The notes under the pieces were generated by a model. That model saw only the letters and a program-made list of their open reading frames with translations. It had not been told where the DNA came from and ran no database searches. A program made the position numbers and the translations under genes. From contig CM039463.1 in the NCBI GenBank assembly GCA_022414725.1, positions 33,131,926 through 33,195,925 on the forward strand: DNA of 64,000 bases. The letters run 5' to 3'. Source of the stretch: Microglena sp. YARC. Lineage: Eukaryota; Chlorophyta; Chlorophyceae; Chlamydomonadales; Chlamydomonadaceae. Positions 7,522 to 53,879 of the stretch are shown here, piece by piece (position 1 is the first letter of the stretch; the number at the start of each line of letters is the position of its first letter).

Positions 7522-8241
7522 ATGAGCGAATCCAATCCTTTGGGACAACCCCATTCCTACCTTCTCGCGGGCCACACTGTATTGTTCCCTCATTCCTCTG
7601 CTTATGGCACGCAGCTATGCTTCATGGCCAAGATGTTGGGGGCCCTTGCAGAGGAGGGCAATGCGCTTCTCGAAGCCCCCACTGGATCTGGTAAAACGCT
7701 CGCGCTTCTGTGCGCAGCCCTCGCCTGGCAAGACAAAATAAAAGCTAACATTCGTGCTGCTCCTGTCTGGCGCCCGGAAGAATCATCGCCGTACTCCAGC
7801 CCAGGTACTGGTGGCCCATGCACAGGTGGTGATGAGTTCAGTAATAAGGGCTGTGGGGCCAAGCAAGCTGCCAACTCCAAAGAGAGTTTCAAAGCAGAGA
7901 AGTGCTGTGGGGGTCCAGATCCTCTTCTCCCTGGTGCTTCCAACACATGGCAGCAAGAAAAAGACAAAGCATCAAACCGATTCTCCGATTTCAAGTTCAA
8001 GGGGGGAGAAGGAGGTGGCTGTTCGGTGGATCTGAACGAAGGCTGTGGAAGCAAGCCAGATGCCAAATCCAAGGAATATCCTGCAGCCGATAAATGCTGT
8101 GGGGGCAAGCAAGATGACAAATCTAAGGAAAGCAAGAAAGCAGATGAAGCTACTACCTCAGCTGGTCCTTCCCGGCAGCCTGAGGCCCAGAGGGTCCCAA
8201 AGGTTTACTTTGCAACAAGGACGCATTCGCAAATTGCGCAG
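7522..8241 (+). CDS. FANCJ: FANCJ exon 1: Q motif, Walker A, motif Ia
   Basis: 240 codons, phase 0 end. [14 protein letters not shown] is the Q-motif region, [19 protein letters not shown] the Walker A helix, [14 protein letters not shown] motif Ia. Between them is a ~130-residue Lys/Ser/Gly/Cys-rich insert with repeated GCG-K and CCGG units ([39 protein letters not shown]). The FANCJ family has a Cys-rich insert at this place. The donor is CAG|GTGCGC. The start is the first ATG of the frame, placing the Q motif about 25 residues from the N-terminus. Confidence 0.88.
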
Positions 8242-11200
8242 GTGCGCAATGGGCCATCAACTTCAGCTTTCCCGCTTATTTGATCACTGTCTCTAGGGAG
8301 CGAGTATTTTTGGAATAGGTCCCATGCCAGGCTCACAAAGCCCTCGATATTCACCCACTTCTCCTTCTCGTTATTGTTTTGTAGCTGCGTATAACAAAAA
8401 AACATTTGAATGATCAAATCACGCTTTTATGCGACTTCAAACCTGAAGTTTGTGCCCAATAGTGCTCAGTAAGCAAGAAACCTAATCTTATCCCCTTGCA
8501 GAGATGCCCCATTGTAATTCTTAATTCTGTGCGCTGATGTCTGGAGCTGATCTGAGATCCCAAGGCTAGACAAGGGTAGTGACTTTATTTGTTTTCTACC
8601 CTTCGCTGCACTTTTGCTGGAAGTATCTAACAGGCCAACACATTGATCATCCATTAAGTGCACTTTGTTAATCTGACTCCTTGGATTTGCTTCGCGTAAT
8701 ACAAGAAGACCAGATGGAGTGGGGCTCGTAAATTGTGATGAGAACAAATGAGTGGCGATATCTGAGCCTAGTTTGACTTCTTATACATGAAGAATTCAAC
8801 TGGGACGGAAGAATGAGGCATGACTCTGTTCACCCTTATGAACATTTCCTTGGACAGTAAGTTTTCGTATGATGAAGGTTACCTGAGTTGCTGACATCAT
8901 AACCCATGCCTCACTCCCTCTACAAGTACACTTACATGTGTGTATGATGCAAGCCATCTCTATCTCTCTCCCGATCATTCCCTCATTACCCATGCCTCCC
9001 TCCCTCTCACAAGTCTCTATCCCACAGCCATTCATGGTGTGAGTATGGTGCGTACACACACTTTTTGTTTTTTTATCAAGCCACCTCAGTACCTCCCTGT
9101 ACCCCCCCAGAGGTGGCAATGGGTGGTAGATTATGGTGCGTACACCCGCTTTTTGAATTTTTTATCAAGCCACCCCAGTACCCCCCTTGTACCCCCCAGG
9201 GATGGCACTGTATGGTAGGTAATGGGCGTGCTCTTTAGCTAAAGCTATTGCCCATCGTGGCCACCAGGTGCCACCCCAAGGAGGGGTAAGGGGTGAATGA
9301 CACCATACCCCACACCCTCACAACCTCACACCCTCATACCCTCACAACCGCACACCACCAAACCACCACACCACCACAACCCCACACCACCACCGCACCC
9401 TCACACCCTCACACCATGTCCAGGTTGTAAAGGAGCTGAAGAGAACACAGTACTCTCCCAGCATGGCTATTCTGGTAAGGACTTGCAACTCATGCTTTTT
9501 TAGGAAATGAGCCAGTGTCTTTCCGAAGCACCATGCTGCCCCAAAAGACTCTAACGTCTCCCCAAAACACGTAGGTGCATAATTTGGCACTTGTGCTACA
9601 TGCAGCACCTTACAGGAAACCCTGCTTGCAAATCATGATGTCATGTTTTCTGGCTATCCCAGGGGATGCGCAGCTCGAGAGTTTGTTTTGTGACTGGTTG
9701 TAAAAGGAAATTCGCCCCAGGAGGTGGGTCTCCCGACACAAACCAGCAGTGGCAGATCATTGGTACCTATCCTGCTGCACATACGTATTTTCATGTGCAA
9801 TTTGTCAAAGTGCTCCCATTGGCACCCGAATTGAAGGAGAGATGCAGGTGGCGTTAGGGATAGGGGTGAGGGTCAGAGTCTGGAGCTGGTCGTTTCGGGA
9901 CTCAGGGAAATTGGTGCATGGGTGGGGGGGTGTAGCGTTTCGGGACTCTAGGAAATTGGCGCGGGGGAGGTATGGGGGAGGGGTCTGGATTCAGTTTTTT
10001 GCAGCTCCCCGGGATCTCTCTTCATCCAAACCTTCAGCAACCTAGTGCACAGCTGATATCGTCAGCTTCCCAGTGCTCCTGGGATCTTTGGGTTTGGCCC
10101 AAAGGCAGTCCCGGGGCGCTGCTTAGAAGCTGCTGCAGATAGCAGAAAAGAAAAGCTCTGGTGAGGAGTGAATTATTCACCAAGTTACACATGGAACAGG
10201 CCCAAAAACCTCCCCCAGGGGGATGATAGCCCCCCCCCCCCCCCCCCCCCTATTGGTGGTTGGCCCCAGTGAAAGCAAACGGGCTGGCACCCTCTCAACC
10301 TCACGCCTCGTAACAAGACATACTATTTATTTATTTATTCACCAAGTTGCGACCACCAGATATGCAAAGTCAGCCCTGTGCCATCCCAATGTTAGCCTGT
10401 GACATGCAGCTCCTACAGCAACCCAGGCGTATTGCATCAGGCATCTACGTGCTCGATGACGCTGAAGTTTGTATTACAGTACATATACTGTTTCATTTTG
10501 GGCTACACATGGCAGCTTCCAGCCAGCTCCAACAGCCAGGCACCAGGTCTTGCCCACAGCTTTCAGTTGCATTGAAATGCCCGCCCGTAACATCAACTTG
10601 CAGACACACTAGCTAGCTTCAGGTTTGGCCCAAGGACGGAGGGAAGGAGCTGCCTAGAAGCTGCTACTCGTAGCAAAACAATGAAACAATGAGTACATAT
10701 GAGGTGTGCTAGGCTAAAATGGATTTGCATCCTATGAAATGATATTGACTTGGAAAAGGAGAACCACAGAAGTAGGTCGTAAGAAAAAGGACTCTGAAGT
10801 TCAGCCACTCACATGGAGTCATTGTGGCCCTCCGAGCGTCCAAGCCGCCAACAATGCATCTAGGCCGCGCACAAATTGTTTATTTACCAACAAATAACAC
10901 TGTAACCTTATCTTTGTTTAAAAAGCTTTATATCTCAGATAGCTGAAATACATCATTGTTAAAGTCACTTGCATGGAGTCATTGTGGCCCACTATGTGTC
11001 CAGGCCGCCCTCAAGCACTAAAGCTTTTAACAAACTTATTTTGTAATACAAACGTATAACACCGCAACCTTGTCTTCAAAAGCTATACAGCTAAAATAGT
11101 TAAAAAGCTATGTAGTTACCTAATCTTATCACATATATATAGTAACCTAATCTTATCACATGGAGTCTTCGTGGCCCACCATGTGCCCAGGCCGCCCGCA

Positions 11201-14200
11201 AGCACCAAAGCTTGTAACCAACTTTTTGCGTACAAAAAATAACACCGCAACCTTATCTTACTATTAAAAAGCTATGTAGCTAAACTAAATTATTGATTAA
11301 AGCCACCAACATGGAGCCATCGTGGCCCACCATGTATCCAGGCCGACACTGCAAGCATTACAGCGTATAACAAACATTGTTCTAACAAACAAACGGCACT
11401 TACCGTTATCTTCATTTAAAAAAGCGATATAGCTCAAATGAGTAAATTATTAAAGCCACTCACATAGAGTCATTGTGGTCCACCATGCGTCCAGGCCGAC
11501 CCTGCAAGCATTGCAGCGTATAACAAACATTGTTCTAACAAATAAATTGCACCTTATAAGCCACTCACATGGAGCCGTCGTGGTCCACCATGTGTCCAGG
11601 ATGGCCCAGCAAGCATTGCAGCGTATAACAAACATTGTGTTATCACACAAATAGCACGTTAATGTATCTTCATTTAAAAGGGCGATATAGCTGCAGTAAA
11701 TAAATTATTAAAGCCACTCACATGGAGTCATTGTGGTCCACCATGTGCCCAGGCCGCCTGTAAGCATTGCAGCGTATAACAAACACTTGTTTAGCACACA
11801 AATAGCACCTTAACGTTACCTTCGCTTAGCAAGCTACACAGCTAAAATAAAATAAATTAATATAAGCCACTCACATAAAGTCATTTTGGTCCACCGTGTG
11901 TCCAGGCCGCCCGTAAACACTACTGCATCAACAAGGCGGTGATGAAAAAGGGGAACATCGATGACGAATGTGAGAAGCTGATGTCGGGCGACGGCTATGG
12001 TTGCAGGTTCATGAAGAAAAAAGAGGAGATGTTTGGCATCAGTAACAGAGTTCCCAAGGTGGGTCATATTTTCAGGGCAGGAACCTGAACTGAGTTACTA
12101 CAGGGAGGTGGGGAAGGGAGGGGGGGGGGGATGTGAGAAGATGAAGGGCGACGGCTATGGTTGCAGGTTCATAAATATCCATAAGGAGATGTTTGGTATC
12201 AGTAACATAGTTCTCAAGGTGGGTTCCATTTTCAGGGCTGGACCCTGAGCTGAGTCACTTCAGGGAGGTGGGGGAGGTGGGAAGGTGGGAAGGTGGGGTG
12301 ACGAGGAATGTGAGAAGCTGATGAAGGGTGGCGGCTATGGTTGCAGGCATGTGCAGAAAAAAAGAAAATGTTTGGTATCAGTCAGAGTTCTCTTCTAAGG
12401 TGGGTTCCATTTTCAGGGCTGGACCCTGAACTGAGGCACTTCAGGGAGGGGGAGGAGGGGGAGGTAGGGAGGAGGAGAGGAGGGGCAAAGCCCATTATTT
12501 GTTTTGTTCTCGCTCACATTTCCCTGGTAAATGTATTTTACTGCCGAAGACGGCGAGCAGCCAAATTGCTGGCTGAAGCTATGGAACTAAGTGCAAGTTG
12601 AAGTTCAAGTTCAAGTTCAAATATAAAGTCATAAAAGAATGTTCTCTTAGGCAGGCCACTGTTGACCCAAGACAAGCCCGCTCCAATCATCTGGTTGTCT
12701 TCAAACCATTTGTTTGGCTAAATAAGAGTACAGCTAAGAGTACATGCAGTTATCATGTCCCTTTCTCCTATGTGACATTTGTTTTGACCATGTCCCTTTC
12801 TCATATGTGACATTATTATTACCATGTCTCTTTTGTTTTATGCTGCTGCAACAGCTAAACGCCGAAAGCTTCGATGTGAGAATCCCATCTCAAGATAACA
12901 GGGCTTTTTTCCTCCGCTACCTATTGCGATCAATACCTCGGACCTTGTTTTGGCCAGACCTTCCGCTACCTGAGACTCCGCTACCCCCCCCCCCCCCCCC
13001 CCCCCCCCCGGGACCGCCCTTCAGGCCACCTACCTAAGTCTCAGCCTGGAGATCACCCTTGAAAGACACTGAATCCCTGATTGCTAATAGGAGACTCTCT
13101 TTTTGAAACGAAACAAAACTTGAACTTGGTTACATAGCTTCAGCCAGCAATTTGGTTGCTCGCCGTCTTCAGTTAAACAATTATTTCCCGGAAAATGACA
13201 AGAAACAAAAAGCTCTGCAAGATGACAACTCTCCGACAGCCTTCCGGTATGAAGCGATCCCCTAGGATTAGAAGTTCAGAGTGTACAATTGCTGTATTGC
13301 TTGTTGCCTGTTCTTTGGAAAGATGGCTTGAAGACTCCCCCCCCCCCCCCCACACTCCCCCCCCCCCCCCCCCCCCCCCCCCCGTATGTTGTGGAGTGGG
13401 CTTGTCTTGGGTCAACTATGGCCTGTCTATGACAACGTAACGAAATGAAGAATTTCCATGGACTGTAACATGCATGCCTGCAACCTGTTGTCTTGTACTG
13501 CAAAGACCTGTAAAAGTCTTTAAATTGTCTATTCCGCTTAGTGTGCTCCCTGGTTTCCGTGGGTATTGCATGGGTAGACTTGGAATCGGCAGGCGGTGAG
13601 CAGCCCTGAGTTTGCTGAAGAGCCATGTTACAATTCAAATTCAAATTCAAATTCTTGTATTGCAGGTGCATGACATAAAGGACATGATTTCCTACCGTAC
13701 CACAGACAAGGCATGCCCCTTCTTGGCTGCCAAGTTGATTGCTGCCTTTAACGCTTCAAATTTAAATTCAAATTCAAATTCTCGTACTGCAGGTGCACGA
13801 CATAGAGGACATGATCTCCTTCGGTACCACAGACAAGACATGCCCCTACTTTGCTGCCAAGACGCTTGCTGCCTCAGCTGAGCTCATCTTCTGCCCATAC
13901 ACGTAGGTTGCAACTTCCTTGTATATTGAAAGGGTTGGGTTTAATAACATATATAATGTAAAAATAAACATATATATACATATATGTTTACATATTCTGT
14001 CCAAACACGTAGGTTACAGCCCTCATTCGTGTATTGAAAGGATATTAACCCCAGGAAGTGGGACTCATCTTCTGCCCATACGCGTAGGTTCCAGCTCTCC
14101 TTAGAAAGATGTTCATGTGGAAAAGTCCGAACGTGCTTGTTTATATATTTTTATTTCTCCCTCCTGCCTACCCCTGGAAAGAATGTAACATGCACATGCA

Positions 14201-17103: not shown

Positions 17104-17137
<34 letters not shown>

Positions 17138-23733: not shown

Positions 23734-23790
<57 letters not shown>

Positions 23791-23959
23791 CACACTCACA
23801 CATACATATACAGATGCACACCAACACATGCACACACACGCACACACACACACACAGAAACACACTCACACATACATATACAGATGCACACCCACACCCA
23901 CACCCACACACACACAGAAACACACTCACACATACATATAAAGATGCACACCCACACAT

Positions 23960-25414: not shown

Positions 25415-25445
<31 letters not shown>

Positions 25446-37919: not shown

Positions 37920-37952
<33 letters not shown>

Positions 37953-38409: not shown

Positions 38410-38443
<34 letters not shown>

Positions 38444-40797: not shown

Positions 40798-40829
<32 letters not shown>

Positions 40830-46800: not shown

Positions 46801-49800
46801 CGAGGATGCTGAGTTGAAGGAGGTACGTGAGGTATGGTGATGGGATACGTGTTGATGTGTATGTAACCCAGTGATGACTAAGACCTTAGGTTACGAGGAT
46901 GCTGAGTTGAAGGAGGTACGTGTTGATGTGTATGTAACCCAGTGATGACTAAGACCTTAGGTTACGAGGATGCTGTGTTGAAGGAGGTACGTGTTTGATG
47001 TGTATGTAACCCAGTGATGACTAAGACCTTAGGTTACGAGGATGCTGTGTTGAAGGAGGTACGTGTTGATGTGTATGTAACCCAGTGATGACTAAGACCT
47101 TAGGTTACGAGGATGCTGTGTTGAAGGAGGTACGTGTTGATGTGTATGTAACCCAGTGATGACTAAGACCTTAGGTTGAGTGAAGGAGGTACGAGGATGC
47201 TGCTGATACGTTGAAGGAGGTACGTGTTGATGTGTATGTAACCCAGTGATGAGGTTACTTGTTGAAGACCTAGTTACGAGGAATTGCTGAGTTGAAGGAG
47301 TACGTGTTGATGTGTATGTAACCCAGTGATGACTAAGACCTTAGGTTACGAGGATGCTGTGTTGAAGAGGTACGTGTTGATCGTGTATGTAACCCAGTGA
47401 TGACTAAGACCTTAGGTTACGAGGATGCTGAGTTGAAGGAGGTACGTGTTGATGTGTATGTAACCCAGTGATGACTAAGACCTTAGGTTACGAGGATGCT
47501 GTGTTGAAGGAGGTACGTGTTGAATGTGTATGTAACCCAGTGATGACTAAGACCTTAGGTTACGAGGATGCTGAGTTGAAGGAGGTACGTGTTGATGTGT
47601 GGAGTGGTTAACCCAGTGATGACTAAGACCTTAGGTTACGTGTTGAGGATGCCCAGTGAGGGTTAAGGATGCTGTGTTGAAGGAGTACGTGTTGATGTGA
47701 TGGGTACGTGTTACGATACGTGTATGTGTGTGATGACTAAGACCTTAGGTTACGAGGATGCTGTGTGAAGGAGGTACGTGTTGATGTGTATGTAACCCAC
47801 CCTTTGCTGAGGAGTTACGTGTTGATGTGTATTGATGACTGAGGTTGATGCTGAGTGTGAGGGTGTACGTGTTGATGTGTATGTAACCCAGTGATGACTA
47901 AAGACCTTAGGTTAGAGGATGCTGTGTTGAAGGAGGTACGTGTTGATGTGTATGTAACCCAGTGATGACTAAGACCTTAGGTTACGAGGATGCTGAGTTG
48001 AAGGAGGTACGTGTTGATGTGTATGTAACCCAGTGATGACTAAGACCTTAGGTTACGAGGATGCTGAGTTGAAGGAGGTACGTGTTGATGTGTATGTAAC
48101 CCAGTGATGACTAAGACCTTAGGTTACGAGGATGCTGTGTTGAAGGAGGTACGTGTTGATGTGTATGTAACCCAGTGATGACTAAGACCTTAGGTTAGGA
48201 GGATGCTGTGTTGAAGGAGGTACGTGTTGATGTGTATGTAACCCAGTGATGACTAAGACCTTAGGTTACGAGGATGCTGTGTTGAAGGAGGTACGTGTTG
48301 ATGTGTATGTAACCCAGTGATGACTAAGACCTTAGGTTACGAGGATGCTGAGTTGAAGGAGGTACGTGTTGATGTGTATGTAACCCAGTGATGACTAAGA
48401 CCTTAGGTTACGAGGATGCTGTGTTGAAGGAGGTTACGTGTTGATGTGTATGTAACCCAGTGATGACTAAGACCTTAGGTTACGAGGATGCTGAGTTGAA
48501 GGAGGTACGTGTTGATGTGTATGTAACCCAGTGATGACTAAGACCTTAGTTACCGAGGATGCTGTGTTGAAGGAGGTACGTGTTGATGTGTATGTAACCC
48601 AGTGATGACTAAGACCTTAGGTTACGAGGATGCTGAGTTGAAGGAGGTACGTGTTGATGTGTATGTAACCCAGTGATGACTAAGACCTTAGGTTACGAGG
48701 ATGCTGTGTTGAAGGAGGTACGTGTTGATGTGTATGTAAACCCAGTGATGACTAAGACCTTAGGTTACGAGGATGCTGTGTTGAAGGAGGTACGTGTTGA
48801 TGTGTATGTAACCCAGTGATGACTAAGACCTTAGGTTACGAGGATGCTGAGTTGAAGGAGGTACGTGTTGATGTGTATGTAACCCAGTGATGACTAAGAC
48901 CTTAGGCTTACGAGGATGCTGTGTTGAAGGAGGTACGTGTTGATGTGTATGTAACCCAGTGATGACTAAGACCTTAGGTTACGAGGATGCTGAGTTGAAG
49001 GAGGTACGTGTTGATGTGTATGTAACCCAGTGATGACTAAGACCTTAGGTTACGAGGATGCTGAGTTGAAGGAGGTACGTGTTGATGTGTATGTAACCCA
49101 GTGATGACTAAGACCTTAGGTTACGAGGATGCTGTGTTGAAGGATGGTACGTGTTGATGTGTATGTAACCCAGTGATGACTAAGACCTTAGGTTACGAGG
49201 ATGCTGTGTTGAAGGAGGTACGTGTTGATGTGTATGTAACCCAGTGATGACTAAGACCTTTAGGTTACGAGGATGCTGTGTTGAAGGAGGTACGTGTTGA
49301 TGTGTATGTAAACCCAGTGATGACTAAGACCTTAGGTTACGAGGGATGCTGAGTTGAAGGAGGTACGTGTTGATGTGTATGTAACCCAGTGATGACTAAG
49401 ACCTTAGGTTACGAGGATGCTGAGTTTGAAAAGGAGGACGTGATGTGTAACCCAAGTGATGAACTAAGGACCTTAGGTTAGAGAGATGTGTGTGAAGGAG
49501 GTACGTGTTGATGTGTATGTAACCCAGTGATGACTAAGACCTTAGGGGGAGGGGGGGGATTTTTGGCTGAGGGTTGGGGAAAAAGGGGGGAGGTACGAGG
49601 ATGCTGACTCTAGAAGGAGGTTGTTGATGCTTGAGTAACCAGAGGTAGTGTATGTAACGTGTGACTGAAGGAGGTAGCGTTACGTGGATGTGTGTTTGAA
49701 GGAGGTACGTGTTGATGGTATGTAACCAGTGATGACTAAGACGAGGTGCTTTGAGGTTGTTTTGATGGTTAAGTAACGAGGATGCTGCCTGTTTGAAGGA

Positions 49801-52800
49801 GGTACGTGTGATGTGTATGTAATCCCAGTGAGACTAAGACGAAGGATGCTTAGGAGGTTACGATGGAACGCCAGTGCTGACCTGTTGAAGGCTGAGTTGA
49901 CAGGAGGTAGCGTGTTGATGTGTATGTAACCCAGTGATGACTAAGACCTTAGGTTACGAGGATGCTGTAGTTGAAGGAGGTAACGTGTTGATGTGTATGT
50001 AACCCAGTGATGACTAAGACCTTTATAGGTTACGAGGATGCTGTGTTGAAGGAGGTACGTGTTGATGTGTATGTAACCCAGTGAAGACTAAGACCTTAGG
50101 TTACGAGGATGCTGAGTTGAAGGAGGTACGTGTTGATGTGTATGTAACCCATGATGACTAAGACCTTAGGTTTACGAGGATGCTGTGTTGAAGGAGGTAC
50201 GTGTTGATGTGTATGTAACCAGTAATGACTAAGACCTTAGTTACGAGGATCTGAGTTGAAGGAGGTAATGGTAGGTAACCCAGTATGTGTATGTAACTAA
50301 GATGCTGAGTTGACAGGAGTACTGTGAGTGATTGAGACCTTAGGTTACGAGGATGCTGTGTTGAAGGAGGTAGCGTGTTGATTACGTGTATGTAACCCAG
50401 TGATGACTAAGACCTTAGGTTACGAGGATGCTGTGTTGAAGGAGGTACGTGTTGATGTGTATGTAACCCAGTGATGACTAAGACCTTAGGTTACGAGGAT
50501 GCTGAGTTGAAGGAGCGTACGTGTTGATGTGTATGTAACCCAGTGATGACTAAGACCTTAGGTTACGAGGATGCTGTGTTGAAGGAGGTACGTGTTGATG
50601 TGTATGTAACCCAGTGACAAGACCTTAGTTACTGCTGTGTTGAAGGAGGTACGTGTTGATGTGTATGAGTAACGAGTGATGACTAAGACCTTAGGTTACG
50701 AGGATGCTGAGTTGAGGAGGTACGTGTTTGATGTGTATGTAACCCAGTGGATGACTAAGACCTTAGTTAACGAGGATGCTGAGTTGAAGGAGGTACCGTG
50801 TTGATGTGTATGTAAACCCAGTGATGACTAAGACCTTAGGTTACGAGGATGCTGAAGTTGAGGAGGTACGTGTTGATGTGTATGTAACCCAGTGATGACT
50901 AAGACCTTAGGTTACGAGGATGCTGAGTTGAAGGAGGTACGTGTTGATTTGTGTAATGTAACCCAGTGATGACTAAGACCTTAAGGTTACGAGGATGCTG
51001 TGTTGAAGGAGGTACGTGTTGATGTGTATGTACCCCAGTGATGACTAAGACCTTAGGTTACGAAGGATGCCTGAGTTGAAGGAGGTAACGTGTTGATGTG
51101 TATGTAACCCAGTGATGACTAAGACCTTGGTTACGAGGATGCTGTGTTGAAGGAGGTACGTGTTGATGTGTATGTAACCCAGTGATGACTAAGACCTGAA
51201 TAGGGTTACGAGTCGATGACGTAGACTTAGTTGCTTTACGAGAGGTTGCAGGTACGTGTTGATTAGGTGTGGTACTGTAAACCCAGTGATGACTAAGACC
51301 TTTAGGAGGTACGGTTGATCGTTACGTGGAATATCGCGTGTGATGTGTGATGACGACTAAGGAGGTGATGTTGAATGTGTAAATGTAATTCGTATGTGTA
51401 TGTACCCAGTGATGACTAAGACCTTAGGTTACGACGAGGAAGGAGGATGTGTTGATGGTATGTCACTGATGACTAAGACCTTAGGTTACGAGGATGCTGT
51501 GTTGAAGAGGTACGTGTTGATGTGTATGTAACCCAGTGATGACTAAGACCTTAGGTTACGAGGATACGAGTAAATTTTAGTTGTGGAAGGAGGTACGTGT
51601 TGATGTGTATGTAACCCAGTGATGACTAAGACCTTAGGGACGAGGATGCTGACGTGTTGAAGTATAGAGACCTTAGTTTGACGTAAACCCAGTGATCTGA
51701 CCTTTAGAGTTGCTGGGAGTTGAAGAGGTACGTGTTGATGTGTATGTAACAGTGATTAAGACCTCCCAGTTACGAGTTATGCGTGTGCTGAGATGCTACG
51801 TGATTGACTGTTACGTATGAACCCAGTGATGACTAAGACCGTGTTGATGTGTATAACCCAGTGAGCTAAGACCTTAGCTGATGCTGATGTTGTGATGAGT
51901 TGTACGTGTTGATGTGTATGTGTGATGACTAAGACCTTAGGTTAGGAGGATGCTGAGTTGAAGGAGGTACGTGTTGATGTGTATGTAACCCAGTGATGAC
52001 TAAGACCTTAGGTTACGAGGATGCTGTGTTGAAGGAGGTACGTGTTGATGTGTCATTGTTTGTGTGTGTGCGGTTGACACTTCAAGGGTAGTCAAAAATC
52101 CAAGATGAACATGATGAAGTGGCATGGAGTTTGTTTCGCATGGAAGTTGCAGATAAACAACCAACTATAAATCCTACATGCTAACCTTGAAGCCTAGAAC
52201 CCTTTCTTGCTCGCTCCTCCCTCCTCACTCGCTCCCTCATCCCTCCCTCCACGCACCCTCCCTCCCCCCCTCGCTCCCTTATTCCCTCCCACCCACCCTC
52301 CCTCCCTCCCACCCTCGCCTTTATTCCCTCCCTCCCACCCACCCTCCCTCCCTCCCACCCTCGGGCTCCCTCATTCCTTCCCACCCACCCAACCTCCCTC
52401 CCTCCCTCCCATCCTCGCTCCCTCATTCCCTCCCTCCCATCCACCCTCCCTCCCTCCCTCCCTCCCCCCCTTGCTCTCTCATTCCCTCCCTCCCACCCAC
52501 CCTCCCTCCCACCCTCGCTTCCTCATTCCCTCTCCACCCACCCACCCTCCTCCCTCCCACCCACCCACTCTCGCTCCCTCATTCCTCCTACCCTCGCTCC
52601 CTCATTCCCTCCCTCCCGCCCACCCTCCCTCCCCTACCGCCTGCCTCCCACCACCCACCCTCCCTCCCACCTCGCTCCCTCATTCCCTCCCACCCACCAC
52701 CCCTCCCTCCCTCCTCCCACCCTCGCTCACCTCATTCCCTCCACAACCACCCACCCTCCCTCCCACCCTCGCTCACTCATTCCCTCCCACCCACCCACCC

Positions 52801-53236
52801 CTCCCTCCCACCCTCGCTCCCTCATTCCCTCCCACCCACCCACCCTCCCTCCCTCCTCTCCACCCTCGCTCACTCATTCCCTCCCATCCTCGCTCCTTCA
52901 TTCCCTCCCCCCCCCCCCCCCCTCCCTCTCACCCACCTACCCACCCTCTCCCCCTCCCTCCCACCCCCGCAATCCCCTCCCTCCATCCCTCCGAACCCCC
53001 ACAATGCCTACCTCCTTCCCTCCACCCACCCACCCGCTCCCCACCCTGCCCCCGCACACGTTCCTGGCAACAGTCTGCAGTTGAGGGGGTGGTCAACATA
53101 TTTGCATGGGCGCTGTAACACCCCCCTCCATCCCTCCCCCACCCTGATCCCCCCCCCGCCCCCGCACACATTCCTGGCAACAATTTGTAGTTGAGGGGAT
53201 AATTCAACTACTTTGCATGGGCGCTGTAACACCCCT

Positions 53237-53272
<36 letters not shown>

Positions 53273-53879
53273 CTGATCATCACCCCGCCCCCGCACACCT
53301 TCCTGGCAACAGTCTGCAGTTGAGTGGGTGATGGACTCCTTTGCATGGGCGCTGGAACAGCTGCAAGGTCTAGGCGAGCTTGATGATGCCATCCCATCCA
53401 CCCACCCACGCATCCCCCCTCCCTCCATCCTCTCACCCACCCACCCTCCCACCAACCCCCCTCCATCCCTTCCCTCCCTCCTCCCTCCCTCCATCCCCCT
53501 CCATCCCACCCACCCACCCACGCATCCCCCCTCCATCCCTCTCACCCACCACCCTCCCACCAACCCCCCTCCATCCCTCCATCCCTCCCACCCACCCACC
53601 CACGCATCCCCCCTCCCTCCATCCCTCTCACGCACCCACCCTCCCACCCACCCCTCCATCCCTCCTCCATAGTCTGCAGTTGTGGGGGTGATCGACTTCT
53701 TTGCCTGGGCGCTAGAACAGCTGCAAGCTCTAGGCCAGCTTGATGATGCCACCCTGTCAGGATGGATGTGCAAGCCCCCTCAGGGGTATCACCTGGCACT
53801 GAAGAACTCCCCAGTTGGGACCACAGACACCAGCTACCTCGCATCCGGGCTGCACCGTATGCAGGCACTCTACTCCAAG
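7522..53879 (+). CDS. FANCJ: FANCJ/BRIP1-family Fe-S DNA helicase, 19 exons traced
   Basis: ATP-dependent 5'-3' helicase of superfamily 2, XPD/Rad3 type; the family acts in cross-link repair and unwinds G-quadruplexes in the nucleus. Exons: 7522-8241, 9424-9474, 11906-12058, 13793-13902, 15300-15504, 17220-17324, 20213-20321, 22893-23042, 25839-25899, 29124-29358, 30711-30821, 34482-34715, 35872-35958, 36618-36721, 37031-37057, 37553-37706, 40397-40531, 41343-45452, 53673-53879. All phases agree and sum to 2356 codons. Motifs in order: Q motif, [20 protein letters not shown], four Fe-S cysteines, [34 protein letters not shown] and [15 protein letters not shown]. The WCLNP and [18 protein letters not shown] signatures and the long insert between motifs I and Ia favour FANCJ over DDX11, RTEL1 or XPD. 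The helicase part is about 917 residues; a long disordered tail follows. The C-terminus is uncertain (see 56093). Confidence 0.9.
8242..9423 (+). other. FANCJ intron 1
   Basis: Mostly unique-looking, with no supported gene. At 9048-9215 an ~85 bp unit (GTGCGTACAC ... TTTTTATCAAGCCACC ... TACCCCCC) occurs twice, and 9305-9415 is a CACCCTCACAAC-type simple repeat before the acceptor CATGTCCAG. No exon-end copies are visible here. Confidence 0.6.
9424..9474 (+). CDS. FANCJ: FANCJ exon 2 (17 codons)
   Basis: [17 protein letters not shown] continues motif Ia (human has ITRELRRTAYS at this place). Phase 0 at both ends; acceptor TGTCCAG, donor GTAAGG. Confidence 0.85.
9475..10799 (+). other. FANCJ intron 2, first part
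   Basis: No coding signal. A TTTCGGGACTCAGGAAATTG-like unit occurs twice at about 9893-9960. A poly-C run (about 20) at 10231-10250 is followed by a family B repeat (GTGGTTGGCCCCAGTG, AACGGGCTGGC) at 10252-10345. AGCTGC-TAGAAGCTGCT motifs occur near 10115 and 10640. Confidence 0.5.
10800..11905 (+). repeat. Acceptor-side array: copies of exon 3 start
   Basis: About 8 units of 120-170 bp, each containing AGCCACTCACATGGAGTCAT, GTGGCCCACCATGTGTCCAG and the first bases of exon 3 (GGCCGCCCGTAAGCA-like), then an AT-rich spacer TATAACAAACATTGTT...ACACCGCAACCTTATCTT...AAAAAGCTATATAGCTAAA. The last unit leads into the intact exon at 11906. Each copy retains an AG at the splice position. Confidence 0.9.
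11906..12058 (+). CDS. FANCJ: FANCJ exon 3: first three Fe-S cysteines
   Basis: 51 codons, phase 0 both ends. [12 protein letters not shown] ... DDECEKL ... GDGYGCRF supplies three of the four cysteines expected to bind the 4Fe-4S cluster (HYC, DEC, YGC). Acceptor TGTCCAG, donor AAG|GTGGGT. Confidence 0.85.
12059..12440 (+). repeat. Donor-side array: copies of exon 3 end
   Basis: Two further copies of the exon 3 second half (GATGTGAGAAG, GGCGACGGCTATGGTTGCAG, GAGATGTTTGGTATCAGTAA) with the donor AAG|GTGGGT and following TTTTCAGGGC, at about 12127-12260 and 12301-12440. Small indels break the reading frame in both. Confidence 0.9.
12510..13195. repeat. Inverted pair of dispersed family C
   Basis: 12510-12622 (plus) and 13112-13195 (minus) are inverted copies of a repeat with TTTACTGCCGAAGACGGCGA, GCAGCCAAATTGCTGGCTGA, AGCTATG and a (TTCAAG)n-type tail. 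GACAAGCCCGC near 12672 and its complement near 13400 extend the symmetry. Poly-C occupies 12985-13009. Single copies occur at 1322, 58862 and 60603. The pair could form a large hairpin in the pre-mRNA. Confidence 0.7.
13337..13383. repeat. Poly-C tracts
   Basis: Two C runs interrupted by ACACT, together more than 40 C residues, in intron 3. Confidence 0.95.
13620..13792 (+). repeat. Extra copy of exon 4 start with (AAATTC)n
   Basis: After AATTCAAATTCAAATTC and TTGTATTGCAG, the bases 13666-13745 repeat the first ~80 nt of exon 4 ([19 protein letters not shown]) with about 80-85 percent identity, then diverge before the second AAATTC tract and the true exon. This is the acceptor-side duplication, one copy. 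Confidence 0.85.
13793..13902 (+). CDS. FANCJ: FANCJ exon 4: fourth Fe-S cysteine
   Basis: [20 protein letters not shown] places the last cluster cysteine in TCPYF, followed by AELIFCPY. Acceptor ACTGCAG; donor AC|GTAGGT, phase 2. Chosen over the copy at 13666 because it runs on to FCPY and a usable donor. Confidence 0.85.
13903..15090 (+). repeat. Donor-side array: copies of exon 4 end
   Basis: About seven decayed copies, period about 170 bp, of GCTTGCTGCCTCTGCACAGC, TCATCCTTTGCCC and the donor TACACGTAGGTTCC, followed by AGCACTCCTTACAAAGATG, AAAGTCCAAACTTGC, TTTATTTCCCCCTCCTGCC and AATGTAACATGCACATGCAT. The donor GT is kept in several copies (near 14014, 14078, 14250, 14590) and lost in others. 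It occupies most of intron 4. Confidence 0.92.
15152..15219 (-). repeat. Family D copy (minus)
   Basis: GTTACAGTCCAGGGGGAGGC, CAAATAGGC and GGGACTTGCCAAACC are the reverse complement of the family D core; ends in a (TAG)n run at 15220-15247. Confidence 0.6.
15300..15504 (+). CDS. FANCJ: FANCJ exon 5: DEAH box
   Basis: [13 protein letters not shown], then [19 protein letters not shown] (Walker B, motif II). 205 nt, completing a Thr codon and ending phase 0 at YKPLR. Acceptor ATGTCCAG, donor AGG|GTAAGA. Confidence 0.9.
15505..16990 (+). repeat. Donor-side array: copies of exon 5 end
   Basis: About ten copies of the exon 5 end (AGTGAGATCTACAAACCCC, TGAGGGTGAGAAGC) with intron bases CTTGCCTTTAGCCTAATTTG, CTACCCCTGAAGTGCA, CATAAACACACATGCATATT and CTGGCAGGCTACACGACAC. 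From 16270 to 16930 the unit settles to about 110 bp and is highly uniform, implying recent amplification. Most copies keep the GTGAGA donor. Confidence 0.93.
17070..17192. repeat. (ACAT)n microsatellite
   Basis: Uninterrupted ACAT tetranucleotide repeat just upstream of the exon 6 acceptor. Confidence 0.97.
17220..17324 (+). CDS. FANCJ: FANCJ exon 6
   Basis: 35 codons, phase 0 both ends: [17 protein letters not shown] ... [12 protein letters not shown]. This is the helical (Arch-like) region after motif II, poorly conserved in the family. Acceptor ACTGTGCAG, donor CCT|GTGAGT. Supported by the array of its 3' end that follows. Confidence 0.75.
17325..17960 (+). repeat. Donor-side array: copies of exon 6 end
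   Basis: About six copies of GACCTTTGAA-TGGTCCAGTC, TGGTCAACCTGTGAGT and the following AT-rich intron bases, at about 17450, 17550, 17610, 17760, 17850 and 17920. The GTGAGT or GTAAGT donor is kept in most. Confidence 0.9.
18251..18330 (+). repeat. Dispersed family B copy
   Basis: GGTTGGCCCCAGTGCAAGCC, AACGGGCTGGC, CCTCAACCTCATGCCTC. Copies also at 10252 and 33336. TTGGC...GCCAA can pair as a small hairpin. Confidence 0.6.
18320..18815. repeat. 40 bp tandem repeat, about 12 copies
   Basis: Unit TATTTATGTATTTATTCATT plus ACCATTTACTCGCATTTACT, nearly identical throughout. Because 40 is not a multiple of three and the unit lacks stops on the plus strand, all three plus frames stay open and give spurious Tyr/Leu/Ile-rich proteins. 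Confidence 0.97.
19072..19157 (+). mobile_element. LINE 3' tail fragment
   Basis: Degenerate copy of the 3' block of the element at 1-704 (CTAGTTCCAGCTTACGC, GTGTCCTTAACTTCACGTCC, CGGATGTAACAA). Confidence 0.5.
19160..20212 (+). repeat. Acceptor-side array: copies of exon 7 start
   Basis: Six copies before the true exon of AAGCCTTTCAACCCATGACC, CGTCAGATGCTGGCTGCCCT, GGAGAGTGCTGGC and TAGACTCAGCCCAGATGTA, each followed by a CAAGCACACAAGTACAATAC, AAATGCGTTGTATAATG, TTGTAGCTGCAAAA spacer. Period varies from about 140 to 190 bp. Confidence 0.93.
20213..20321 (+). CDS. FANCJ: FANCJ exon 7
   Basis: [18 protein letters not shown] and [17 protein letters not shown], helical; phase 0 start, phase 1 end at ACA G|GTGTGT. 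The acceptor CCCCGTCAG is the one whose phase matches exons 6 and 8. Sequence conservation with known family members is low here, so the assignment rests on phase and on the array of its copies. Confidence 0.65.
20330..22892 (+). repeat. CCACCAACAA arrays with embedded copies of exon 8 start
   Basis: Long ACCACCAACA / ACCACCATCA minisatellites (20480-20520, 20600-21715, 22400-22880) contain four copies of the exon 8 5' end (GGAGACGCCGCCAATCTGGC, AATACCTGC-AATGTGCACT, and in later copies GACTATGTCCCTAGGTGTGC) at about 20548, 20692, 21722 and 22312, before the intact one at 22893. The 22312 copy is preceded by a family D repeat (22152-22292). Confidence 0.92.
22893..23042 (+). CDS. FANCJ: FANCJ exon 8
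   Basis: [20 protein letters not shown] then [17 protein letters not shown], matching the helical segment before the DD-Y region of FANCJ. Starts with two bases completing a Glu codon, ends phase 1 at GCT GCT G|GTGAGT. Acceptor CACTGCAG. Confidence 0.78.
23043..23400 (+). repeat. Donor-side copy of exon 8 end and (GTGGTG)n
   Basis: One decayed copy of CAGGGGCAGGG ... GGGGGTCAATGC with GTGATTTCCATATGATG lies at 23123-23180; a GGTGGTGATTGTGGTGGT-type repeat follows. Confidence 0.8.
23401..23664. other. Intron 8, unique stretch
   Basis: About 260 bp without recognised repeat or gene between the GTGGTG and AC arrays. Confidence 0.5.
23665..24350. repeat. (AC)n with higher-order unit
   Basis: Dinucleotide AC tracts interspersed about nine times with AGAAACACACTCACACATAC, ATATACAGATGCACACCCAC, ACATGC. 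The order is regular, so the compound unit (about 70-110 bp) has itself been amplified. Confidence 0.95.
24440..25285. repeat. ACAGAC / GGTACAGG simple-repeat complex
   Basis: (ACAG)n at 24521-24561 and many copies of ACACATATACAGGTACAGG, GACACAGGCACAGGCATA. A ~130 bp block containing CTCAAATACATCCTCGGCTA, GTCAGA-TCACAAGCACAGAC occurs twice (24770-24840, 24905-24980). Confidence 0.9.
25290..25838 (+). repeat. Acceptor-side array before exon 9
   Basis: Seven copies of the intron end ACAGGGTCTAGCAGCAGTA, separated by CACACCCACACC-type simple repeat and C runs, at about 25307, 25397, 25457, 25538, 25627, 25687 and 25797. The last one runs to the true acceptor ATATCCCAG. Here the copied part stops short of the exon itself. 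Confidence 0.85.
25839..25899 (+). CDS. FANCJ: FANCJ exon 9
   Basis: 61 nt: completes Asp, then [19 protein letters not shown], ending phase 2 (AG|GTGAAG). It corresponds to the DDY-(K/R) segment upstream of WCLNP. Both phases fit only with the acceptor at ATCCCAG, which selects this start. Confidence 0.7.
25900..26660 (+). repeat. Donor-side array after exon 9, G-rich
   Basis: About seven copies of the donor region CCTGTGAAGGGGTGTGGTGT with GGTATTGTGGGTGGGTCGGT and GGTGTTGGGGGCGGGTC, unit about 90-110 bp. 26451-26483 is a run of more than 30 G with one interruption. Confidence 0.85.
26722..26750. repeat. Poly-G tract
   Basis: About 28 consecutive G residues immediately upstream of the LINE insertion. 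Confidence 0.95.
26765..28275 (+). mobile_element. 5'-truncated LINE in FANCJ intron 9
   Basis: The reading begins as [11 protein letters not shown], then shifts frame to [21 protein letters not shown], a typical end of the reverse transcriptase thumb region, and continues open to 27857. SMRHCQMCG...[11 protein letters not shown] is the CCHC-type zinc knuckle found near the C-terminus of many LINE ORF2 proteins. The 3' UTR (27858-28240) has two short hairpins (CCGCCACTGTAAGTGG; GCCACCAAAACGGTGG) and ends in a TGTAA microsatellite tail at 28255-28273. The frameshift and missing 5' part make it inactive. Confidence 0.8.
28276..28504. other. Intron 9, unique stretch
   Basis: No gene or repeat recognised in these 230 bp; ACCCCAGGAGTTGGGACCCGT near 28420 resembles the ACCCCAGGAAGTGGGACTCAT near 14050. 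Confidence 0.4.
28505..29123 (+). repeat. Acceptor-side array: copies of exon 10 start
   Basis: Three copies of the acceptor and exon 10 start (CCACCCTCAGAGGCCAGC, AACGCAAGCCAGGCGGG, CCAGCCCACCAAGCCATGG, ATAAAGGCGTCC) near 28560, 28720 and 28952, with C-rich and CACACCACAC spacers and a C run of over 25 near 28899-28924. Confidence 0.9.
29124..29358 (+). CDS. FANCJ: FANCJ exon 10: WCLNP and motif III
   Basis: [16 protein letters not shown] is a FANCJ-type signature and [20 protein letters not shown] is motif III. 235 nt; one base completes Arg, ends phase 0 at MSKQ. Acceptor CCACCCCCAG with a long pyrimidine tract, donor CAG|GTGAGG. Confidence 0.9.
29359..30370 (+). repeat. Donor-side array: copies of exon 10 end
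   Basis: Five copies, period about 181-187 bp, of CTGACTAGCATGGCCCCTAT, CCCCCCTAGACTCCTTAGCG, GAATTCCATCAGAAGCTGGA, GGCTCCTCATGTGGT and the donor GAAGCAGGTGAGGGGATGCA. The two copies nearest the exon are almost identical; the last has lost the donor (CAGATGAGG). Confidence 0.94.
30395..30710 (+). repeat. Acceptor-side array: copies of exon 11 start
   Basis: Two copies, period 132 bp, of CTCACACAACCCGCTTCTTG, CAG|GTGTGGGCCGGTGTC, ATCCCTTGTGGCCGTAATGA, AACCACGTTGTCAGCC before the intact exon. Because 132 is a multiple of three, both copies keep the exon reading frame ([15 protein letters not shown]). Confidence 0.93.
30711..30821 (+). CDS. FANCJ: FANCJ exon 11
   Basis: 37 codons, phase 0 both ends: [19 protein letters not shown] and [16 protein letters not shown], matching the VW-G-I...L-ATF...FEFQDE segment of FANCJ. 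Acceptor CTTCTTGCAG, donor CAG|GTAATG. Confidence 0.9.
30822..31015 (+). repeat. Donor-side array of exon 11 end, first part
   Basis: Copies of GTAGTTCTCCAGGTAATGAT, TACTTTCTGGTAGTTCTGG: exon 11 end plus donor, 40-60 bp unit. The array is interrupted at about 31015 and resumes at 32950. Confidence 0.9.
31016..32949. mobile_element. 1.9 kb AT-rich insertion with telomere-type repeats
   Basis: It splits a tandem array, so it arrived after the array formed. Base composition is clearly more AT-rich than its surroundings. On the minus strand there are exon-like segments with good splice sites: 32120-32035 ([19 protein letters not shown], donor GTGAGT) and about 31733-31501 ([15 protein letters not shown] ... 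[13 protein letters not shown], donor GTGAGA). A 30 bp tandem repeat (CATGCAGGTGGTGACCCATG) occupies 31790-31915. 32422-32445 is (TTTAGGG)3-4. I do not recognise the proteins. Edges read ACGCGCAAT and ACACGCAAT, weakly suggesting ends. Confidence 0.55.
32369..32500. repeat. TTTAGGG repeats inside a 79 bp direct duplication
   Basis: About 53 bp (AACAATGTTGTTATATACAA ... TTCGTGTCCTA) occur on both sides of GGG(TTTAGGG)3. TTTAGGG is the plant and common green-algal telomere motif; Chlamydomonas uses TTTTAGGG. Confidence 0.85.
32950..33285 (+). repeat. Donor-side array of exon 11 end, second part
   Basis: About seven further copies of GTTCTCCAGGTAATGATTAC and TTTCTGGTAGTTCTGGTAG, with extra GGTAGTCCTGGTAGTTCT stutter near 33180-33250. 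Confidence 0.9.
33286..33700 (+). other. Intron 11 middle, with family B copy
   Basis: 33336-33410 is a family B repeat. The remainder has no coding signal; AGTACCCTGGTACATACCA near 33697 resembles a motif near 33543. Confidence 0.5.
33701..34481 (+). repeat. Acceptor-side array: copies of exon 12 start
   Basis: Seven units of 100-118 bp, each with TTTTCCATGCCGCAG|CTATG, CAGGGCCATCCCCGATGGGG, TGCTCTTGTTCCTTCCCAGC and a spacer ACTGGAACACACATACTCAC. The three units nearest the exon are almost identical at 118 bp. All plus frames are open across most of the array, so long ORFs here are not separate genes. Confidence 0.94.
34482..34715 (+). CDS. FANCJ: FANCJ exon 12: motif IV region to CRGK
   Basis: 78 codons, phase 0 both ends. 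[16 protein letters not shown] is motif IV; it continues to [11 protein letters not shown], the start of motif V. Acceptor GCCGCAG, donor AAG|GTGAGC. Confidence 0.92.
34716..35115 (+). repeat. Donor-side array: copies of exon 12 end
   Basis: Two copies (34767-34885 and 34988-35115) of AGTGACTTGACGGCTGC, GGGAGAGGAGCCTTGATGAT, TGCCATCTGTAGGGGGAAGG with GTGAGC retained in the first. Poly-G runs lie between them. Confidence 0.92.
35127..35460. repeat. ~63 bp tandem repeat carrying an acceptor-like tract
   Basis: Five copies of CCCCCACTCTTTTTCAGATC, AGTTGTATTGCCCCAACTGC, TTGCCAGTGAAGTG. The CCCCCACTCTT...AG tract resembles the real exon 13 acceptor (CCCCCCCACTCTTGCTGTAG), so this may be an acceptor-side array whose exon part has been lost. 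Confidence 0.8.
35470..35770 (+). repeat. AGCTGC hairpin repeat and family F copy
   Basis: CAGCAGCTTGTAGGCAGCTCC near 35477 and, inverted, AGCTGCCTAGAAGCTGC near 35619 flank about 130 bp, similar to 62165. Then (GAT)n and family F (TTTTGCCTGGTGCCCTACTG, GACTCCAAATGTGCCC, GTCAAGGGGGCTTATGAACA). Confidence 0.6.
35872..35958 (+). CDS. FANCJ: FANCJ exon 13: motif V
   Basis: 29 codons, phase 0: [19 protein letters not shown] then VPFPAIKD. With exon 12 it forms CRGK-VSEGIDF, the motif V signature. Acceptor TTGCTGTAG, donor AAG|GTGGGT. Confidence 0.93.
35959..36617 (+). repeat. Intron 13 with (CAT)n
   Basis: 36265-36560 is a CAT/CAC trinucleotide tract; frames through it give poly-His, poly-Ile and poly-Ser artefacts. 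GAATATCATATCAATGACT is directly repeated at 36564 and 36584. No gene otherwise. Confidence 0.9.
36618..36721 (+). CDS. FANCJ: FANCJ exon 14
   Basis: [20 protein letters not shown] then a Pro/Ser stretch to GDL; the Q(K/R)-K-YND signature follows motif V in FANCJ. Ends phase 2 (TG|GTACGT). Acceptor ACCTATAG. Confidence 0.85.
36722..37030 (+). repeat. Donor-side array of exon 14 end with (TTG)n
   Basis: Three or four copies of TGTGGTACGTTTTGCTGTTG, each followed by TTG repeats, TGTTTATTGTTGTTGTTTG and TCTGTTG; about 76 bp unit. Every copy repeats the donor GTACGT. Confidence 0.9.
37031..37057 (+). CDS. FANCJ: FANCJ exon 15 (27 nt microexon)
   Basis: One base, then YQKTPFLK and two bases (CG|GTAAGA). 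It fits the WY-x-Q/E segment just before ALNQALGR; phases agree with both neighbours. The acceptor CCTGAAAG is weak, so the exact left edge is uncertain. Confidence 0.65.
37058..37552 (+). repeat. Acceptor-side array: copies of exon 16 start
   Basis: Two copies of GTCAGCAGGCTTTCCGTGCC, TTGAACCAAGCGCTAGGCAG, ATGCATTGTTTTCAAGAC at 37085-37160 and 37361-37440, separated by ACCAACCCACCC simple repeats and GGTATAACATGTGCTGCA, GGTACCTACCAGGTAC blocks. Confidence 0.92.
37553..37706 (+). CDS. FANCJ: FANCJ exon 16: motif VI
   Basis: [20 protein letters not shown] then [13 protein letters not shown]: motif VI with both arginine fingers, near-identical to FANCJ of animals and plants. Ends phase 0 at SRWVRTSIQ. 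Acceptor CCTTCCAG, donor CAG|GTGAGC. Confidence 0.95.
37707..38725 (+). repeat. Donor-side array: copies of exon 16 end
   Basis: Ten copies, about 80-125 bp apart, of GATGGGCTGTCACACTGGGT, CAGGGCATCCATACAGGTGA, GCGTCATTTCTAATGATGAT, with GAT-repeat spacers. Nearly all keep CAGGTGAGC or AGGTAAG. The frame from exon 16 stays open through the first four units (to 38024). Confidence 0.95.
38726..38835 (+). repeat. Dispersed family F copy
   Basis: (GAT)n, TACATTTTTCCTGGAGCCC, GACTCCAAATGTGC, GACAGAGTCAAGGGGGGCTT, ATGAACATCAC; as at 5760 and 35652. Confidence 0.7.
38870..39720. repeat. ~120 bp GT-rich tandem repeat, five copies
   Basis: Unit contains GGCAACGACAAGGTCTATGA, AGCTAATTTCGCACCCTCTT, AACTGCTCTTGTAAGAGGTG, TTTGTTGGTGGGGCTGTGGG and a GGTGGTGGTGG tract (39010-39640). 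I could not match it to an exon edge. Confidence 0.92.
39745..40345. repeat. G runs and ~70 bp AT-rich tandem repeat
   Basis: G tracts at 39750-39778, then seven imperfect copies of CCCCCTC-ATGCTGAGCTAC, CACAAGAGTGT, ACAAAATAAATAAATCATTA, CAATTTAAATTCAAATTTAA to 40340. Confidence 0.88.
40397..40531 (+). CDS. FANCJ: FANCJ exon 17
   Basis: 45 codons, phase 0: [20 protein letters not shown] matches the segment after SKWVRQQIQ in FANCJ (short helix with F-x-SL-F). Ends ...[17 protein letters not shown]. Acceptor GGCCACAG. Confidence 0.8.
40532..41075 (+). repeat. Donor-side array: copies of exon 17 end
   Basis: Five copies of GGAGCCATGCGTATTGTGTG, CACAAGCGCAGGAGGCCAAG, GTGGGTCACTGTGTGTG near 40590, 40730, 40829, 40927 and 41019, with G-rich spacers including a run of over 25 G at 40800-40827. 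All keep AAG|GTGGGT. Confidence 0.95.
41076..41228 (-). mobile_element. MITE-like element, copy 2 (inverted)
   Basis: Begins GTAGGGAACGGCAGTATGAT and ends TATGCTAGTCCCTAC, an imperfect terminal inverted repeat; internal CTGACTAGGCTAAAGTTGCC matches the complement of the other copies. It is inserted at the edge of the exon 17 array, 114 bp before exon 18. Confidence 0.7.
41343..45452 (+). CDS. FANCJ: FANCJ exon 18: giant low-complexity tail
   Basis: 1370 codons without a stop, phase 0. The acceptor AATCGCAG leads into [18 protein letters not shown]. Blocks in order: [10 protein letters not shown] repeats (about 41878-42060); poly-Gln (42130-42210); poly-Gly (42465-42515); [10 protein letters not shown] repeats (42890-43035); [13 protein letters not shown] repeats (43035-43670); [10 protein letters not shown] and [13 protein letters not shown] repeats (43780-44210); His/Pro-rich (44340-44660); [14 protein letters not shown] repeats (44700-45240). 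It ends in a more ordered piece, [18 protein letters not shown]. Predicted disordered; no known domain. Phase fits exons 17 and 19, but whether all of it is translated is inference. Confidence 0.72.
45453..52060 (+). repeat. 71 bp array, about 93 copies of exon 18 end and donor
   Basis: Unit: GAGGATGCTGAGTTGAAGGA G|GTACGTGTTGATGTGTAT GTAACCCAGTGATGACTAAG ACCTTAGGTTAC. The first 21 bases are the exon 18 end and GTACGT is its donor. Two main variants (GCTGAGTTG and GCTGTGTTG) are interspersed. Segments at 47165-47890, 49420-49900 and 50220-51950 are scrambled with many small indels, while flanking units are near-identical. Confidence 0.97.
52195..53045. repeat. CCCTCC / CCCACCCACC pyrimidine array
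   Basis: C/T-rich minisatellite with CTCGCTCCCTCATTCCCTCC recurring every 50-70 bp. Pro/Ser/Leu-rich ORFs across it are artefacts. It supplies a very long polypyrimidine region in intron 18. Confidence 0.95.
53046..53672 (+). repeat. Acceptor-side array: copies of exon 19 start
   Basis: Three copies of CACACCTTCCTGGCAACAG|TCTGCAGTTGAG and CTTTGCATGGGCGCTG at about 53055, 53160 and 53291, separated by C-rich DNA including a run of about 30 C near 53239-53268. The third copy keeps an open frame for 25 codons into DDAIPS before diverging. Confidence 0.93.
53673..53879 (+). CDS. FANCJ: Exon 19 (C-terminal)
   Basis: 69 codons, phase 0 both ends: [51 protein letters not shown]. Acceptor CCTCCATAG, donor AAG|GTGGGG. 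No family domain recognised. Phase and the flanking copies of its edges support it being a real exon; membership of the helicase transcript is inferred. Confidence 0.7.

Follow-up and report, generated by a model that had tools for sequence, protein, structure and literature searches.

The window, a 64,000-nucleotide stretch of DNA from the alga Microglena sp. YARC, contains a FANCJ gene whose introns carry tandem copies of their own splice junctions. This raises the question of what kind of process builds such arrays: one directed at splice junctions, as the initial annotation had suggested, or one that duplicates short segments over the whole gene. The gene model consists of 19 exons between 7522 and 53879 on the plus strand, with an open frame and with all introns GT-AG. 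The Pfam domains found in the product, DEAD_2 and Helicase_C_2, are the helicase domains expected of FANCJ. A protein search was done with the helicase part of FANCJ as the query, accepting only proteins up to 1.75 times the query length; among the 120 of 258 matches listed, the top-scoring proteins are green-algal, those with a name coming from Myrmecia (44% identity) and Tetradesmus (48%). The outer exons of FANCJ are presumably the ones used, judging from the open frame and the protein match. The exons are as follows.

7522..8241, plus strand, exon 1, no donor array
9424..9474, plus strand, exon 2, arrays at neither edge
11906..12058, plus strand, exon 3
13793..13902, plus strand, exon 4
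15300..15504, plus strand, exon 5
17220..17324, plus strand, exon 6
20213..20321, plus strand, exon 7
22893..23042, plus strand, exon 8
25800..25899, plus strand, exon 9
29124..29358, plus strand, exon 10
30711..30821, plus strand, exon 11
34482..34715, plus strand, exon 12
35872..35958, plus strand, exon 13, arrays at neither edge
36618..36721, plus strand, exon 14, donor repeats below threshold, few exon bases by eye
37031..37057, plus strand, exon 15, 27 nt
37553..37706, plus strand, exon 16
40397..40531, plus strand, exon 17, choice of acceptor uncertain
41343..45452, plus strand, exon 18, 4110 nt, tandem arrays kept in frame within a low-complexity tail
53674..53879, plus strand, exon 19

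The exon following exon 19 was not found, and an arbitrary stretch (53880-57500) was taken as I19. Rfam and tRNA scans of the window gave no matches. Some other features of the window and of the assembly can be mentioned here. Intron 9 contains a 356-codon open frame (window 26787-27857) that by eye resembles a mobile-element fragment, with a Cys/His-rich end, and that has no Pfam match. In intron 11 there is an interstitial (AGGGTTT)n repeat (window 32421-32446), which we take to be the plant-type telomere repeat. Upstream of FANCJ, a 2-kb array with a 10-bp unit occupies 3322-5380 of the window, and the long open frames found there are probably spurious. The COX1 model was matched on contig G000:C1118 over positions 1-435 of 436, with a frame that stays open only when TGA, present 12 times, is translated as Trp; the product is 85% identical to that of Chlorogonium elongatum, of the order Chlamydomonadales, which is the best named record, and unnamed sequences reach 90%. 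Partial COX1 matches are present on further contigs of the same assembly.

To detect copies that cross a junction we used probes made of 50 nt of exon and 40 nt of intron. Such copies were found at 22 of the 37 FANCJ edges (12/19 donors and 10/18 acceptors), compared with 0-1 scoring junctions in 20 second-order Markov surrogate sets of the introns, and elsewhere the same probes gave a single same-strand match in another intron and none antisense. Probes containing only the last or first 60 nt of the exon found copies for 17/37 edges, all of them in the adjoining intron and on the same strand, with no matches in other FANCJ introns or on the opposite strand, and none of six mid-exon control probes had a match. 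These results confirm that repeats of the exon edges are really present in the gene's own introns and that the arrays include exon bases, both of which had been claimed from inspection of the letters. The arrays are listed below.

10966..11782, plus strand, acceptor array of exon 3, 6 copies, unit about 153 bp
12169..12435, plus strand, donor array of exon 3, 2 copies
13632..13715, plus strand, acceptor copy of exon 4, single
13991..14788, plus strand, donor array of exon 4, 6 copies, unit about 169 bp
15681..16887, plus strand, donor array of exon 5, 10 copies, unit 110 bp
17445..17947, plus strand, donor array of exon 6, 5 copies
19150..20037, plus strand, acceptor array of exon 7, 6 copies, unit about 164 bp
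20511..22362, plus strand, acceptor copies of exon 8, 4 copies, broken by a CCA-rich simple array
23121..23204, plus strand, donor copy of exon 8, single
25371..25674, plus strand, acceptor array of exon 9, 4 copies
28696..28997, plus strand, acceptor copies of exon 10, 2 copies
29488..30331, plus strand, donor array of exon 10, 5 copies, unit 179-195 bp
30410..30627, plus strand, acceptor array of exon 11, 2 copies, unit 132 bp
30850..33284, plus strand, donor copies of exon 11, 8 copies in two blocks with unrelated sequence between, 10 exon bases only
33715..34414, plus strand, acceptor array of exon 12, 7 copies, unit 97-117 bp
34823..35126, plus strand, donor array of exon 12, 2 copies
37063..37405, plus strand, acceptor copies of exon 16, 2 copies
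37753..38744, plus strand, donor array of exon 16, 10 copies, unit 77-132 bp
40590..41065, plus strand, donor array of exon 17, 5 copies, unit about 99 bp
45482..52053 (whole stretch 45453-52060), plus strand, donor array of exon 18, 80 copies, base unit about 71 bp
53028..53363, plus strand, acceptor copies of exon 19, 3 copies
54695..56652, plus strand, donor copies of exon 19, 3 copies, 15 exon bases included

The acceptor arrays (exons 3, 4, 7-12, 16 and 19) are exactly those first described. The donor list was retained for exons 3-6, 8, 10-12 and 16-19, with the donors of exons 9 and 14 falling below the threshold (by eye, their exonic part is a few bases). Arrays contain from 1 to 80 copies that are 69-98% identical to the junction, with a median spacing mostly of 77-187 bp and up to 115 exon bases included, spacing and exon bases being measured on at most 40 copies per array. 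Six introns (3, 6, 8, 10, 11 and 18) have arrays at both ends. Two units were also searched against the whole assembly (2390 contigs totalling 568 Mb, of which the largest one seen measures 195 Mb): the exon 5 unit gave nine matches, all nine within intron 5, and the exon 10 unit gave six, all six at exon 10 and in intron 10. FANCJ introns with arrays have a mean length of 2473 bp (n=15) versus 717 bp for those without (n=3, p 0.027), the mean over the gene being 2181 bp. In a table of PMC11247165, the mean intron length of Chlamydomonas reinhardtii is given as 229 bp.

The phenomenon had been presented as belonging to one gene. This restriction had to be abandoned, because copies also accompany 16 of the 21 exon segments sampled from kinesins and 15 of the 26 from myosins. 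The kinesin sample consisted of the 21 strongest of 128 matches, in at most 17 genes and in 20 regions taken with 700 bp flanks. For myosin, the genome was searched with the myosin head family, giving 27 exon matches in four places that were taken as genes, one of the regions containing 2500 withheld bases; one match, itself a copy, was dropped, and each of the remaining 26 segments was aligned to its surroundings. All 182 copies in the two families are on the same strand and none lies on the wrong side, with five kinesin copies falling short of the segment edge. The 73 kinesin copies thus comprise 34 of the 3' edge lying downstream, 34 of the 5' edge lying upstream and these five, and of the 109 myosin copies 88 repeat the 3' half and lie downstream, while the other 21 repeat the 5' half and lie upstream, 42 of the 109 coming from one exon. 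By gene, copies were found for 6/7, 0/6, 5/6 and 4/7 myosin segments. When a splice-site matrix was applied to the 47 kinesin and myosin segments, 77 junctions were placed and 43 of them had crossing copies (23/40 donors and 20/37 acceptors). In the HSP70 match table, at the level of protein matches, repeated partial matches share a common exon end, for example near C3:11606017-11606801. The genes sampled represent three families and are not a genome survey. The myosin gene at G000:C2:69437855-69444762 has shorter introns, with no exon-edge copies by the main method and one by a laxer method, and so provides a natural contrast with the other three.

If each copy had been made anew and independently from a slowly changing exon, distances between copies should greatly exceed those between copy and exon. 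We compared the two in the 16 FANCJ arrays with three or more copies. The mean copy-copy distance is less than twice the copy-exon distance in all 16 and less than the copy-exon distance itself in nine. When only the nearest copy is considered, it is closer than the exon in 95 of 117 cases, but this way of counting is biased towards copies since the best of several is taken. The mean distance to the other copies is smaller than the distance to the exon for 71/117 copies, or for 41/85 when the exon 18 array is left out; of 69 copies outside that array, 41 are nearer to their outward neighbour than to the exon. The exon 18 donor array is clearly homogenised (copy-copy 0.042 versus copy-exon 0.180). 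As far as sequence distances can tell, the balance leans to growth inside the arrays and away from new copying of the exon, and outside exon 18 it is not decisive. A decay of copies towards the interior of the intron, claimed initially, did not turn out to be general: in 11 arrays, how far a copy lies from the exon does not predict its divergence (mean rho 0.07, p 0.90 by the Wilcoxon test). This test used rounded distances and left out E6_D, E10_A, E12_D, E18_D and E19_A of the 16, and E5_D entered with 10 of its 13 copies. With the exon 18 donor array left out, identity between copy and exon is lowest at third codon positions (0.757 versus 0.816 and 0.853). That copies differ mostly at third positions indicates that the outer unit is the constrained coding one, and also that the exon has changed under coding constraint since the duplications, so that the arrays are not all recent.

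Copies of junctions bring with them copies of splice sites. Of 147 aligned FANCJ copies, 131 retain the splice dinucleotide, a count in which four "exon 18 acceptor" copies are exon 17 donor copies counted again, and in which two or more of the apparent losses, at exon 19, come from one-base alignment offsets. The exon 19 acceptor scored 0/3 intact, but two of its junction-crossing copies are offset by one base, so this gives no sign of loss. Compared with random adjacent positions, retention of the dinucleotide is slightly higher in all four tests, namely FANCJ donors (0.870 versus 0.839, p 0.33), FANCJ acceptors (p 0.023), kinesin and myosin donors (p 0.044) and kinesin and myosin acceptors (p 0.12). 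Second codon positions are likewise almost invariant in the exon, and junction-weighted identity is 0.854 there versus 0.903 at splice sites. Some of the excess would arise anyway, since the reference keeps GT and AG fixed and the other positions also change in the exon flank. Some upkeep of the dinucleotides by selection is possible from these comparisons.

We then asked whether repeats are concentrated at the junctions. Over the 18 FANCJ introns, with simple repeats counted in, coverage by local direct repeats inside the intron is 0.64 at 0-20 nt from the edge, 0.68 at 20-50, 0.67 at 50-100 and 0.67 at 400-1000. The corresponding values for the exon side, in bins whose far limits are 20, 50, 100 and 200 nt, are 0.56, 0.54, 0.48 and 0.59, with short exons overrun by the outer bins. 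These values suggest that the arrays cross the exon-intron boundary without a sharp barrier. As an estimate and not a computed value, 22 of 37 junctions is roughly what such coverage would yield. The exonic share of the unit, computed for 21 arrays from values of reach and spacing picked by hand, with E18_A and E19_D left out, has a mean of 0.51 and an sd of 0.17 (KS versus uniform, p 0.089), with breakpoints on both sides; the shares are somewhat bunched near one half, slightly tighter than random.

Exon 18 carries similar arrays in coding sequence. It encodes a long low-complexity tail rich in Pro, Gly, Ser and Gln, downstream of the helicase and full of tandem arrays, and each of the 22 TRF rows there has a period that is a multiple of 3 (14/14 at periods of at least 20), versus 32/104 of the intron rows with periods of at least 20, rows overlapping in both sets. 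In-frame periods are what is predicted for general duplication filtered by the reading frame. The donor array that follows exon 18 is irregular and indel-rich at about 49.4-51.9 kb, which may reflect either consensus errors of unpolished reads or real decay.

Taken together, we consider it probable that the arrays are minisatellites straddling the junctions, produced by a generic and frequent process of short tandem duplication over the whole gene. Replication slippage, or the repair of staggered nicks, would duplicate random segments of roughly 50-200 bp. Where such a segment crosses a junction, the order exon-intron-exon-intron would result, as the position of the copies suggests; the outermost splice site keeps the whole exon and, we propose, remains in use, so that the mRNA is unchanged. 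Duplications lying wholly within conserved exons would be removed by selection. The array would subsequently grow and turn over through internal duplication, for which the relationships among copies give partial backing; growth within the array is plain in the exon 18 array and less so elsewhere. Junctions would look special only because an exon beside an intron makes a duplication both recognisable and tolerable. The earlier suggestions that growth was independent at each splice site and that decoy sites are tolerated are compatible with the sequence.

A process focused on splice sites or transcribed introns, through R-loops, stalled spliceosomes or conflicts between transcription and replication, would instead make duplications preferentially there. 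The tandem content of introns speaks for it: coverage at periods of at least 20 is 0.51 in FANCJ introns and 0.20, 0.37, 0.51 and 0.79 in those of the four myosins, compared with 0.23 in random genome windows (19 unmasked of 20, 1.2 kb each) and 0.06 and 0.11 in the flanks of the window. Duplication may therefore be stronger in transcribed DNA, although intergenic DNA may only look poorer, with mobile elements unmasked there. The bunching of exonic shares near one half would also fit. However, a mutation process starting at junctions, R-loops or RNA intermediates, as advanced initially, is left unsupported by the lack of enrichment beside junctions relative to intron interiors (0.64-0.68 within 50 nt versus 0.67 at 400-1000 nt), by similar arrays inside coding exon 18, by the mean share of 0.51 and by copy-copy distances below twice copy-exon in 16/16 arrays, and we regard such a focus as unlikely. 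The same distances bear on the idea that each copy is templated anew from the exon edge, by RNA and reverse transcription or by gene conversion. Copies do derive from the nearest exon edge, and outside the exon 18 array their average distance to one another is no smaller than that to the exon (41/85), as templating would allow; but this model predicts copy-copy distances well above copy-exon, whereas they stay under twice that value in all 16 arrays and under the value itself in nine, and the next copy is closer than the exon in 41/69. Spliced RNA is not the template, because the copies contain intron bases. We find templating from the exon very unlikely.

Perhaps the copies are kept by selection as splice-competent sites, whether as decoys, as alternative sites or for stepwise (recursive) splicing of long introns. 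The 131/147 intact dinucleotides, the slightly higher retention in four tests and the excess over second codon positions are in its favour, but the FANCJ donor effect is not significant and frozen GT and AG in the reference account for part of the excess, so that maintenance by selection appears to us distinctly improbable as the explanation for the arrays. Hardly any credence is due to an assembly artefact or to the insertion of a dispersed repeat family next to the exons. The array at exon 18 is indeed very regular, and its noisy part at 49.4-51.9 kb is of the kind expected in unpolished long reads; copies 69-98% identical to their junction are nevertheless mostly too diverged for misassembly, and the pattern recurs with differing sequences in many genes. 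A dispersed family was rejected also because the exon-edge probes match no other FANCJ intron and the two units searched genome-wide match their own loci only.

Under generic duplication, a new intron could arise if the acceptor in use lies in a copy of the donor-side exon end, and one suggestive case, perhaps, is intron 17. The stretch concerned is the following.

41319..41350, plus strand, acceptor stretch of intron 17, aligning with the end of exon 17

The alignment between the acceptor region and the exon 17 end covers 35 columns with a score of 17, and the other 17 introns score 6-11.5. As high a score was reached by 3 of 306 mismatched donor/acceptor pairs; two of these are short exons' own overlapping flanks (E2 and E15), and the third, the exon 18 donor with the exon 6 acceptor, has a chance-like score of 18. 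Birth of intron 17 by tandem duplication is, on this alignment, suggestive only. The statement that the two ends of one intron are unrelated stands for the 17 other introns, where no such match was found, and may fail for intron 17.

A wider reading can be put forward tentatively, and we hold it to be rather doubtful: across the lineage, tandem duplication over junctions would be the main engine of intron lengthening genome-wide and a source of new introns, the spliceosome would obey an outermost-site rule at thousands of decoy-rich junctions, and the decoys would perhaps be kept in part for stepwise splicing. If the sampled genes are typical, the genome provides thousands of natural tests of how the spliceosome chooses the true site among near-identical neighbours and would show intron lengthening by a process that does not involve transposons. 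It might also offer introns caught soon after birth by tandem duplication.

Several known systems resemble these arrays in part. In the potato RdRp case (PMC4974935), a duplication crosses the intron-exon boundary, and the intron 17 acceptor, which aligns with the donor-side exon end, is comparable to it. Unlike intron gain by tandem duplication, the algal arrays enlarge existing introns, and the 17 other introns are without an end-to-end match. Introner elements are a single dispersed family of repeats that add intron sequence across many genes. The algal repeats likewise add intron sequence in many genes but, unlike introners, each junction has its own private repeat, as seen with the FANCJ probes and with the two units searched genome-wide. 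The closest likeness is to the "mirages" of lancelets, described in PMC3087553 as tandem repeats that span exon-intron boundaries in Adh3 and globin genes, with splicing reported as normal and with copies homogenised within clusters, the boundary unit excluded; according to PMC3902484, they also occur in lancelet PGBD5 and TnC. As far as these sources go, the Branchiostoma mirages and the algal arrays are both minisatellite-like repeats across boundaries on donor and acceptor sides, and many mirage copies retain AG or GT. Length polymorphism and somatic instability are further features of the mirage type. In FANCJ, a boundary-spanning unit is found at 22/37 junctions, with 5' boundaries (12 donors) and 3' boundaries (10 acceptors) both represented. 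Mirages are reported there for a handful of lancelet genes, whereas the algal repeats occur at most sampled exons of three gene families and reach 80 copies. No green-algal report of junction arrays was recognised among the open-licence full texts searched. We conclude that this alga presents a new, as far as searched, and much larger case of mirage-type arrays, one that is apparently widespread in its genome.
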